From Prauserella salsuginis (GTDB lineage Bacteria > Actinomycetota > Actinomycetes > Mycobacteriales > Pseudonocardiaceae), in NCBI RefSeq assembly GCF_024648885.1, contig NZ_JANBBF010000008.1:124001-188000 (forward strand): DNA of 64,000 bases, in the 5' to 3' direction. A program made the position numbers and the translations under genes. Below, in pieces: positions 15,012 through 17,650 of the stretch (positions are counted from its first letter, which is position 1; each line of letters opens with the position of its first letter). The notes under the pieces were generated by a model, which saw nothing but the letters and a program-made list of their open reading frames with translations, did no database searches and was not told the origin of the DNA.

Positions 15012-15055
15012 TATGACTCCGGTGACATGACTGTCCATGACACCGGTGACGTACG
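15012..15055. promoter_or_regulatory. Tandem LacI-type operators between the kinase and P-loop/HAD genes
   Basis: Two copies of an 18-bp imperfect palindrome with a central CG: TATGACTCCGGTGACATGA (centre 15020/15021) and CATGACACCGGTGACGTAC (centre 15044/15045). Their centres are 24 bp apart. The second overlaps the -35 region of the plus-strand promoter; the first would cover the minus-strand promoter. The same pair with the same spacing is found at 17486-17528. Confidence 0.8.
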
Positions 15056-15065
15056 CGGCTATCAT
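15037..15065 (+). promoter_or_regulatory. Promoter of the P-loop/HAD gene
   Basis: ATGACA (15037-15042), a 17-bp spacer and TATCAT (15060-15065), with the ATG at 15073 seven bases after the -10 box. This gives a leaderless transcript. The -35 lies inside the downstream operator. Confidence 0.6.
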
Positions 15066-15072
15066 CAGGAGC

Positions 15073-16314
15073 ATGGCGTCGCATTGTCAAACCGCCCGGC
15101 CGCTCGCGGTCGGCGTATCGGGACCGGCCGGGAGCGGGAAGACGACCCTCGGCCGGCATCTCGCCGCCGCGCTCGGAGCGCCGTTGCTGGACCTGGATTC
15201 GCTCACGACGCCGCTGCTCGACCGGATGCACGGGCCGGTCTTCGCCGAGCACTGGCTCGCCCCTCCGCACCGCGACACGATCCGCGACGCCCGCTACGCG
15301 GCGCTGCGCGCCACCGCCACCGACGTCGTGGCGACCGCGGGCACCGCGGTGCTCGTCGCGCCGTTCACCGCCGAGCTCGCAGGCGGGCGCGCCTGGCGGG
15401 AGCTCACCGAGGCGCTCGCTCCCGCCGAGCTGCGGATGGTGCACATGCGCGGAGCTCCCGAGCTGTTCGCGCGCCGACGGGCCGGCCGCGGCGCAGCCCG
15501 CGACTCGCACCGGCCCGCCGACTCACCCTCCGCTCCGCCCGCCGTCCCGCACACCGGTGTCGACGCGGAGCTGACGCCGCAGCAGCAGTGTTTCCGGGTG
15601 CGACGCGCGCTGGGCCACCGCGTTCCGATCAACCCCGACGCCCCGGTGTTCGACCGGCCTTTCGACGCAGTGCTGTTCGATGTGGACGGTGTACTGGTGG
15701 ATTCGACCGCGTCGGTACTGCGGTCCTGGGAACGACTCGCCGGCGACCTCGACATCCCGCCGGCCACGGTCGAGCAGAACCACGGCCGCCCGGCCCGTGC
15801 TCTCCTCTCCCAGTTCCTGCCCGCAGCGCGCGTGGCCGAGGGGATGCGGCACATCGAACGACTCGAGGTCGACGACGCGCCCACGGTCACCGAGGTGCCG
15901 GGAGCCCACGCCCTCCTCGATGCGCTCCCAGCGACGCGGTACGGGCTGGTGACCTCCGGTACGCCCGCGATCGCCCGCGCGCGACTGGCCGCCGCCGGGA
16001 TCACCCCACCTCCGGTGCTGGTCACGGCCGACGACGTGCACGCCGGCAAGCCCGACCCCGAGCCCTATCGCCTCGCGGCGCAGCGGCTGAGTGTCGCGCC
16101 GGAACGATGCCTGGTCGTCGAGGACGCACCGGCCGGGGTCGCCGCCGCCCGCGCAGCCGGATGCGCGGTGATCGGGATGCTCGGCACGGTCGCTCCCGGC
16201 GAGCTGGCTACGGCGGACGTGCTCGTGGACGGCCTGGACCGGCTCACAGTCTCTGCCGACGAGTCGGGCGTCGGCCTGACACCGACGCCGGGCGCCAACT
16301 CGGGCCCGGGCTGA
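15073..16314 (+). CDS. Fusion of a P-loop kinase-like domain and a HAD sugar phosphatase
   Basis: The 413-residue protein joins two domains. Residues 1-185 form a P-loop NTPase resembling uridine/gluconate kinases, with GVSGPAGSGKTT (15-26) and a DLDSL Walker B-like turn at 40-44. Residues 195-390 are a HAD-IA phosphatase/phosphoglucomutase-like domain with FDVDGVLVDS (D203, D205), VTSGT (293-297), K326 in AGKPDPEPY, and VVEDAP (348-353). It may phosphorylate and dephosphorylate related sugars or recycle dead-end sugar phosphates. The ATG at 15073 is preferred over the one at 15037, which lies in the operator; AGGAG is only one base upstream, consistent with leaderless initiation. It is convergent with lacI. 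Confidence 0.8.
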   Translation: MASHCQTARPLAVGVSGPAGSGKTTLGRHLAAALGAPLLDLDSLTTPLLDRMHGPVFAEHWLAPPHRDTIRDARYAALRATATDVVATAGTAVLVAPFTAELAGGRAWRELTEALAPAELRMVHMRGAPELFARRRAGRGAARDSHRPADSPSAPPAVPHTGVDAELTPQQQCFRVRRALGHRVPINPDAPVFDRPFDAVLFDVDGVLVDSTASVLRSWERLAGDLDIPPATVEQNHGRPARALLSQFLPAARVAEGMRHIERLEVDDAPTVTEVPGAHALLDALPATRYGLVTSGTPAIARARLAAAGITPPPVLVTADDVHAGKPDPEPYRLAAQRLSVAPERCLVVEDAPAGVAAARAAGCAVIGMLGTVAPGELATADVLVDGLDRLTVSADESGVGLTPTPGANSGPG

Positions 16315-16338
16315 GACACCGCACCGGCCGCGGCCCGG

Positions 16339-17322
16339 TCACCGGCGCACGGCGCAGGATTCGCGTTCGATGAGGCGCACCGGCAGCACCGTTCTCCTCC
16401 GGTAGCGCCGTTTCGGATTGTCCAGCCGGTCGAACACACGCCGGGCCGCGTGGTCGCCGAGTAGCGCGGGATCCTGGTCGATCACCGTCATCGCAGGCGT
16501 GACCATGTCCGCCATCGGGAAGTCGCCGAATCCGACCACCGCGAAGCGGCCGTCCCGGAGTTGGGGCACCAGCGCCATGCTGCTGCGGGCGTTCGACGAG
16601 AAGATCGCGGTCGGCGGCTCCGGCAGCGCGGTCAGCCTCGCGACGGCCGTAGCCGCACTCTCCCTGTCGACGACGCCGAAAACCTCGCAGGATTCGTCGC
16701 GCTCGATGCCGTGCTCGGCCAGCGCCGCGCGATAGCCGCGCAGCCTGCTCCTGCCGGTCGGCACATCGGAGATGTCGGCCACGAACGCGATCCGCTCGTG
16801 GCCGCGTTCCAACAGATGGGTCACGCCCATCCGCGCGCCGCCTTCGTCGTCCTCCAGAAAGGCGTCGGCGGCAACGCCACCGGGAGCGCGGTCCACGAAC
16901 ACGATGGGAAGCCGGTCCGACCACCGCGTCAGGTACGAGTTGTCCGTCGCGACCGGTGCGATCACCAGGCCGCTGAGTGACTGTGACAGCAGCCGCCCGA
17001 CGAGTGTGCCCTCCTGCTCGGCATCCTCGCCGATCGTGGTGACCATCGTGGACATTCCGTGTTCCACGGCCACGTGGTTCACCGCTTCGGCCACGGCGGC
17101 GAAGAACGGGTCGAGCAGGTCGGGCACGACGACACCGACGACGGGAGCCCTGCCGTTGCGGAACGTGGTGGCCACCGCATTCGGGACGTAGCTCAGCTCC
17201 CGCATGGCGAGCTCGACCCGTGTCCTGGTCTCCGGTAACACGTGCTCGTCGTTGTTGAACACACGCGACACGGTCTTCGCGCTCACTCCGGCGAGCGCGG
17301 CGACATCTCGCATCGTGGTCAT
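16339..17322 (-). CDS. LacI-family transcriptional repressor
   Basis: A 327-residue regulator with the canonical amino-terminal DNA-binding domain (MRDVAALAGVSAKTVSRVFN, residues 4-23, then a hinge helix PNAVATTFR) and a periplasmic-binding-protein-like effector domain ending in the FGDFPMADMVTPAMTVIDQDP dimer region. It lies between the sugar enzymes and the sugar porter. Four copies of a central-CG palindrome, the form of site this family binds, flank those genes. I infer that it represses both transcription units and is induced by the imported sugar or its phosphate. Its own start is 164 bp from the nearer operator, so autoregulation is uncertain. Confidence 0.92.
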   Translation of the reverse strand: MTTMRDVAALAGVSAKTVSRVFNNDEHVLPETRTRVELAMRELSYVPNAVATTFRNGRAPVVGVVVPDLLDPFFAAVAEAVNHVAVEHGMSTMVTTIGEDAEQEGTLVGRLLSQSLSGLVIAPVATDNSYLTRWSDRLPIVFVDRAPGGVAADAFLEDDEGGARMGVTHLLERGHERIAFVADISDVPTGRSRLRGYRAALAEHGIERDESCEVFGVVDRESAATAVARLTALPEPPTAIFSSNARSSMALVPQLRDGRFAVVGFGDFPMADMVTPAMTVIDQDPALLGDHAARRVFDRLDNPKRRYRRRTVLPVRLIERESCAVRR

Positions 17323-17485
17323 GAGATTCGGGCGGACCTTTCGACGAGGGGACGCGCTGGACGCATCGGCTTCGAGCGCAGTGTATCGATTCCGGGCACC
17401 GGTGCTCGGAACCTCGGAGCCCGGCGTCGGTGCCGGTCGGGATCCGAGGAGCTGACGGGCGGCAACGCGCCACGCGTCGTCCCAC

Positions 17486-17528
17486 TATGACACCGGTGAC
17501 GTATCCGAGCTTGACATCGGTGACATGA
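17486..17528. promoter_or_regulatory. Tandem LacI-type operators upstream of the sugar porter
   Basis: TATGACACCGGTGACGTAT (17486-17504, centre 17494/17495) and TTGACATCGGTGACATGA (17511-17528, centre 17518/17519) are spaced 24 bp centre to centre. The downstream site overlaps the TTGACA -35 hexamer. In both operator pairs the downstream centre falls 7 bases after the first base of the -35. Confidence 0.8.
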
Positions 17529-17539
17529 CGCCGTCTACT
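17511..17539 (+). promoter_or_regulatory. Promoter of the sugar porter gene
   Basis: A consensus -35 TTGACA (17511-17516), a 17-bp spacer and TCTACT (17534-17539). The transcript would have a leader of about 105 nt before the ATG at 17651. Confidence 0.65.
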
Positions 17540-17650
17540 GTCCCGGTGCGGCCGCCGTCACGCAGCCGTATGCCTCCGGGTGGGAATCCACCCGGCCCTG
17601 AGCCGTCGCGGATCATCGCGATGCGGGAACGAGACAACGGGAGTCGACAG

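Follow-up and report, generated by a model that had tools for sequence, protein, structure and literature searches.

Introduction

How a small group of sugar genes is controlled in the actinobacterium Prauserella salsuginis, and which sugar it serves, is the question raised by a 64,000-nucleotide stretch of contig NZ_JANBBF010000008.1 (hereafter the window). Here the gene for a LacI-family repressor lies between two pairs of short palindromes, O1/O2 and O3/O4; the first pair stands between genes for an FGGY-family kinase and class I aldolase on one strand and a P-loop/HAD fusion protein on the other, and the second pair stands before the gene for a sugar porter (Table 1). The initial annotation had read this as a local LacI-type sugar regulon with paired operators, and that reading is strengthened by a footprint across four Prauserella genomes, by operator-like sites at 30 of 32 related loci outside the genus, and by the match between one repressor clade and one motif. 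On these computational grounds we consider the predicted regulon to have a probability of about 0.87. Control of this kind is commonplace in bacteria. The arrangement itself is genuine, relatives have conserved it, and, with counterparts in several actinobacterial families, it provides a regulon that can be put to the test.

Paired operators and their rarity

The core pattern TGACNYCGGTGAC has four exact matches in the window, at 15014, 15038, 17488 and 17512, all on the + strand. Measured between centres (15020.5/15044.5 in one pair, 17494.5/17518.5 in the other), each spacing is exactly 24 bp. This count agrees with a scan by a symmetric matrix trained on 16 Prauserella sites (the window's four included), which finds exactly four sites scoring at least 14, at 24.8-26.3, and the claim that the palindrome occurs only as two pairs of equal spacing is thereby confirmed. 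With up to two mismatches allowed, TGACNYCGGTGAC has 43 matches in the window, compared to 24 +/- 4.5 in shuffled sequences. All 24 sites taken from six loci are imperfect palindromes with a central CG, although the selection pattern itself holds this CG. Even palindromes with a central CG near the regulated promoters form the operator class to which these sites belong, with binding of the repressor being predicted.

Throughout the genome (5.64 Mb) there are 14 exact matches to TGACNYCGGTGAC, four of them at this locus, and the pattern read backwards has one; the motif does not occur in the hundreds of copies that the initial annotation had named as evidence against a regulon. Exact and relaxed searches named 17 other distinct places, ten of which were examined, their coding status being judged by open frames and codon-position GC. 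Nine lie in probable coding sequence, and the matrix scores of all ten range from 3.0 to 18.2. The tenth (C5:304422; L084, 1500-1515) is a single weaker site, scoring 13.5, upstream of a gene for a solute-binding lipoprotein, and is possibly an extra target or a chance match. The ten places examined give no support to a genome-wide regulon, as nine are probably coding and the remaining one scores so low.

Conservation within Prauserella

P. alba, P. isguenensis and P. rugosa, whose kinases are the nearest named relatives of that in the window (96, 91 and 87 percent, respectively), have retained the two pairs, each with its 24-bp spacing. In the footprint of the four genomes found with the locus, most operator bases are invariant and the bases between the sites vary; thus at least two sites per promoter region are conserved in orthologues. 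P. isguenensis has kept the spacing with one base changed in the core of O3, the upstream porter operator. The same genome has a third, weaker operator-like site (L047, 7966.5; score 19.0), located 61 bp past the pair in the kinase leader.

Promoters and the position of the operators

The kinase and aldolase genes have a minus-strand promoter of their own, whose -35 element (15085-15090) falls on codons 5 and 6 (Cys-Gln) of the P-loop/HAD gene. Relative to the start estimated from its -10 element, the operators are centred at about +10 and +34, downstream of the start. The main operator of the E. coli lac promoter is likewise centred near +10, as O2 is here; the second operator lies 24 bp away in our case, whereas in lac it is distant. 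On the opposite strand a candidate promoter of the P-loop/HAD gene, for which O2 would be centred at about -28 (start estimated), has hexamers invariant in the four Prauserella genomes, with a spacer of 17 bp in half of them and 18 bp in the rest, and becomes less clear beyond the genus. Its -10 element overlaps that of the kinase promoter, and its mRNA would be leaderless or nearly so. The initial annotation, which had O1/O2 serve both divergent units, had missed this conserved kinase promoter, where the operators lie downstream of the start and not at the -35 element.

At the porter, TTGACA and GTCTACTGT are invariant in the four Prauserella genomes and a candidate promoter was assigned by eye, whereas a consensus promoter scan there detected no promoter. 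The downstream operator centre had also been said to fall 7 bases after the first base of the -35 hexamer. For both plus-strand promoters (-35 at 15037 and 17511) this is correct, but operator half-site (A/T)TGACA and -35 hexamer are one and the same, so that the constant offset results from their overlap and adds no independent evidence. Before the LacI gene, a block conserved in the four Prauserella genomes (17378-17393) includes TACACT on the minus strand, about 100 bp from the operators, which is a candidate -10 element of the repressor's own promoter.

The kinase promoter form recurs at other loci. Among 35 loci with a related kinase, 10 have TTGACA and an 18-bp spacer upstream of the kinase together with an operator of the window's type (LacI1-type) centred at 0 to +12 (L046-L052, L065, L069 and L071); they represent six named genera and one Microbacteriaceae genome, and nine were also recovered by a promoter script. 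Another 13 have no such kinase promoter with operator under the criteria used. A script match at L067 was not counted, as its palindrome lies at +22 and resembles neither of the two motifs discussed here. The Cys-Gln codons beneath the opposite-strand -35 element are present in 8 of 10 aligned rows, the row of L061 beginning downstream of the N terminus, and are perhaps kept by selection on the promoter.

Related loci beyond the genus

The matrix was applied to the 32 non-Prauserella loci among the 35, with a threshold of 16. It found 90 sites in 30 of them, compared to 2 sites (in 2 of 32 loci) in reversed sequences, 1, 1 and 0 in three block-shuffles, and a single site in a control of 23 short loci with weaker FGGY matches in relatives. 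The regulon would recur in Pseudonocardiaceae, Streptomycetaceae, Micromonosporaceae, Nocardiaceae, Microbacteriaceae, Demequinaceae and Cellulomonadaceae.

When both sites reach the threshold, the spacings are 23 (7 cases), 24 (6), 25 (1), 34 (3), 36 (9), 37 (2), 44 (1), 45 (3) and 47 bp (1), counts that are not independent, many loci being near-copies (Rhodococcus, Plantibacter and Demequina). Spacings of 23-25 bp occur in Saccharopolyspora, Streptomyces, Actinoplanes, Demequina and Cellulomonas, 34 bp in Plantibacter, 36-37 bp in Rhodococcus and Williamsia, and 44-47 bp in loci with a third site, while some loci, such as L050, have single sites only. A universal 24-bp rule is ruled out by this diversity. 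Inclusion of weaker sites (at least 8) adds spacings of 9, 12, 13, 27, 32, 38 and 42 bp.

Assignment of the repressor

Membership of the LacI family is clear for the product of the gene at 16339-17322 (N-terminal LacI helix-turn-helix PF00356, 69.7 bits with a cut-off of 27; periplasmic-binding-like sensor domain PF13377, 92 bits with a cut-off of 26.5). A tree was built without the L068 fragment (208 aa), and carried a warning that some long branches, including L073_11287, may be misplaced. Of 31 LacI proteins at least 45 percent identical to that of the window, 30 fall in one clade (support 100/99) and L045 lies outside; proteins of a second LacI type in Rhodococcus group in a separate clade of 12 (100/100), and those of a KTAS type in another of 9 (96/88). 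The recognition helix S-x-KTVSRV is kept across the window's group, in which the residue before the shared lysine is A, S, P, L, V or I, and in the second type it is F.

This second type (SFKTVSRV), found in Rhodococcus and Williamsia, is accompanied by another palindrome, AGACAACGTTGTCT, its likely operator, which lies on this same form of promoter at 12 of the 35 loci (L053-L061, L066, L068 and L079; about 6880-6935 in L053 coordinates), 8 of which were also inspected directly. Here AGACAACGTTGTCT is at +4, before the genes of the second LacI, the kinase and the aldolase, and the promoter spacer is 18 bp in 11 loci and 17 bp in L068. Judged from these sequences, there has been an apparent exchange of regulators upstream of the kinase and aldolase. 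The pairing of clade and palindrome supports the predicted repressor assignment, in that the motif follows one LacI clade, and the presence on one promoter form of different operator palindromes for the two LacI types, in Rhodococcus and its kin, amounts to a natural experiment on operator specificity.

A scenario for regulation can be outlined as follows. The repressor would bind ATGWCAYCGGTGWCAT; without inducer, its dimers on O1/O2 would block the divergent promoters of the kinase/aldolase and P-loop/HAD genes, and those on O3/O4 the sugar porter. At the kinase promoter the operators would act from just past the putative start, whose counterparts at the P-loop/HAD and porter promoters include the -35 element within the proximal site. 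The imported sugar or its phosphate would presumably free the repressor from its operators, and the products would then import a ketose, phosphorylate it by the FGGY kinase and split it by the class I aldolase, an order and a substrate that are both provisional.

Several observations weigh against such a regulon. Two of the 32 test loci, L068 and L080, have no site of at least 16, and one coding-sequence site elsewhere in the own genome reaches 18.2. No close kinase homologue was found in three of six other Prauserella genomes searched (one of them 91 percent complete), and hence not every member of the genus has the gene set. SFK-type paralogues share the KTVSRV part of the helix, which is alone no proof of specificity. 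In addition, a close counterpart of the Rhodococcus short-chain dehydrogenase/reductase (SDR) described below was not found in the own genome, the best match being 44 percent. Finally, upstream of the LacI start there are 165 bp before the nearest operator begins, and the repressor is therefore probably not autoregulated in Prauserella, while more than three-fourths of local LacI regulators are autoregulated according to a LacI regulon survey (PMC4052901).

Arrangement of the paired sites

According to this survey, 1118 operons are preceded by tandem sites, whose spacings peak at 13, 22 and 32 bp; about 20 percent of the regulated operons have more than one site, RafR and ScrR are regulators with double sites only, and the actinobacterial phylum is described as under-represented in the survey's data (PMC4052901). 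Paired LacI operators as such are therefore already known. The regulon described here resembles the local LacI regulons of the survey in its even palindrome with a central CG and in the predicted local control of adjoining sugar genes, and differs in its spacing (24 bp, and in relatives 23-25, 34, 36-37 and 44-47 bp, vs. the three peaks), in a kinase promoter that overlaps the start of a divergent gene, and in a regulator probably not autoregulated in Prauserella (PMC4052901). In the open-access literature searched (by motif strings, enzymes, regulators, and Prauserella with LacI; judged by title or abstract start) no description of the regulon was found among the papers listed.

As to what the pairing means, it can be tentatively proposed, at somewhat short of even odds, that a pair is bound cooperatively by two adjacent dimers, offset from each other by about 100 degrees round the helix. 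The 24-bp spacing is precisely conserved while the spacer sequence drifts, and tandem sites at 22 and 32 bp are interpreted as cooperative in the survey, but 24 bp is not among its peaks (PMC4052901), and no pair with 22 or 32 bp and both sites of at least 16 was found at our loci. One 13-bp pair in Cellulomonas, formed by weaker sites (at least 8), does coincide with a survey peak. Moreover, 36-37 bp would place the dimers on nearly opposite faces. Cooperative binding on the same face, which the initial annotation had raised with a doubt of its own, has to be given up, for 24 bp is about 2.29 turns and hence about 100 degrees off the same face, and other lineages have 36-37 bp.

A further possibility, which we hold with a little more reserve, is that the two sites of a pair are independent, each serving one of two divergent promoters without contact between dimers, and that the fixed spacing comes from promoter geometry or common descent. 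The O1/O2 pair does lie between divergent genes, spacing differs by lineage, and some kinase promoters have a single operator (L050 and L069). Against this, the four Prauserella genomes and Saccharopolyspora have exactly 24 bp in each of their two pairs, even though 165 bp lie between the LacI gene and the beginning of the porter pair, and 24 bp is also seen in Actinoplanes and Cellulomonas, with 24 and 25 bp in Streptomyces. That the sites are a chance or compositional artefact of GC-rich DNA is exceedingly improbable: many two-mismatch matches would fit it, as would the fact that 55 of 60 relatives have single exact matches of 13 bases, but the matrix counts against reversed and shuffled sequences, the conserved footprint and the clade-motif match do not.

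Pathway and substrate

Family models and solved structures gave no equivalog above cut-off for the kinase, the aldolase or the P-loop/HAD protein. The kinase belongs to the FGGY carbohydrate kinases (PF00370, 61.1 bits vs. a gathering score of 28.8) and falls below the cut-off for xylulokinase XylB (TIGR01312, 75.2 bits vs. 380); similarly, the aldolase is below those for tagatose-bisphosphate aldolase LacD (TIGR01232, 51.5 bits vs. 432) and the PRK12858 subfamily (NF009498, 154 bits vs. 184). With the LacD/YihT class I aldolases it shares the DeoC/LacD Pfam family, yet it lies below every NCBIfam cut-off listed. Lys203, Lys206 and a GRSLWK motif are invariant in its 12 aligned rows, regions which would hold the Schiff-base lysine and a phosphate site.

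In L054, L069 and L071 the operators are also found beside genes for an SDR and a sugar ABC transporter, either between or before them, and in Demequina (L064) they lie between an SDR gene and a gene group with mannitol-dehydrogenase-family and D-mannose-isomerase-like proteins, both below NCBIfam cut-offs. The SDR of these other lineages resembles L-xylulose reductase and sorbitol dehydrogenase. Gene content of this kind suggests a putative route from polyol to ketose, followed by kinase and aldolase; the substrate is perhaps a ketohexose, possibly made from a polyol where a dehydrogenase adjoins. When plasmids were searched for the kinase at E 1e-60, there was no match.

More doubtful is the full proposal of an actinobacterial ketohexose/polyol route not described before, in which an FGGY kinase and a P-loop kinase/HAD fusion would be combined with a class I aldolase that belongs to neither of the named LacD and YihT groups, under a LacI clade with side-by-side dimers about 100 degrees apart and operators just downstream of a promoter whose -35 element is embedded in the coding sequence of the divergent gene. 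A sulfoquinovose (sulfoglycolysis) route is quite improbable. Although the second-best solved match of the aldolase is sulfofructosephosphate aldolase (7ag1, E 2e-18), the best is a DUF2090-domain protein (8tnf, E 2e-23), the kinase is of FGGY type, and neither a sulfoquinovosidase nor a PfkB-type kinase is among the five cluster proteins, to which this comparison was confined within the genome.

Features of the locus

Table 1. Genes, promoters and operators of the predicted regulon (window coordinates).
Feature	Position	Strand	Remarks
DeoC/LacD-family class I aldolase, 294 aa	12698..13582	-	PF01791; best NCBIfam PRK12858
FGGY-family carbohydrate kinase, 447 aa	13642..14985	-	PF00370; no NCBIfam cut-off reached
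P-loop kinase domain fused to HAD-IA phosphatase, 413 aa	15073..16314	+	PF13671, PF00702 and PF13419 above cut-off
LacI-family repressor, 327 aa	16339..17322	-	PF00356, PF13377; recognition helix SAKTVSRVFN
MFS sugar porter, 463 aa	17651..19042	+	TIGR00879, 374 bits (cut-off 238); PF00083
Kinase/aldolase promoter, TTGACA-N18-GATGAT	-35 15090-15085; -10 15066-15061	-	start estimated near 15054
Candidate P-loop/HAD promoter, ATGACA-17-TATCAT	15037..15065	+	hexamers invariant in 4 Prauserella
Candidate porter promoter, -35 TTGACA	17511..17541	+	-10 TCTACT (17534-17539, 17-bp spacer) or TACTGT (17536-17541, 19-bp spacer); by eye
Operator O1, ATGACTCCGGTGACAT	15013..15028	+	centre 15020.5; exact core match; matrix score 26.3; core invariant in 4 Prauserella genomes
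Operator O2, ATGACACCGGTGACGT	15037..15052	+	centre 15044.5, 24 bp from O1; pattern, footprint and matrix
Operator O3, ATGACACCGGTGACGT	17487..17502	+	centre 17494.5; one core base changed in P. isguenensis
Operator O4, TTGACATCGGTGACAT	17511..17526	+	centre 17518.5, 24 bp from O3; contains porter -35

Two further observations were made in relatives. In the genome of one (G017, contigs C807 and C988), TGACATCGG is repeated in tandem with a 9-bp unit, an array that apparently has nothing to do with the operators. The P-loop kinase domain forms a fusion with HAD in some lineages, as in the window (15073-16314), and free-standing in others (L065, 7353-7889; L054, 6330-6839).

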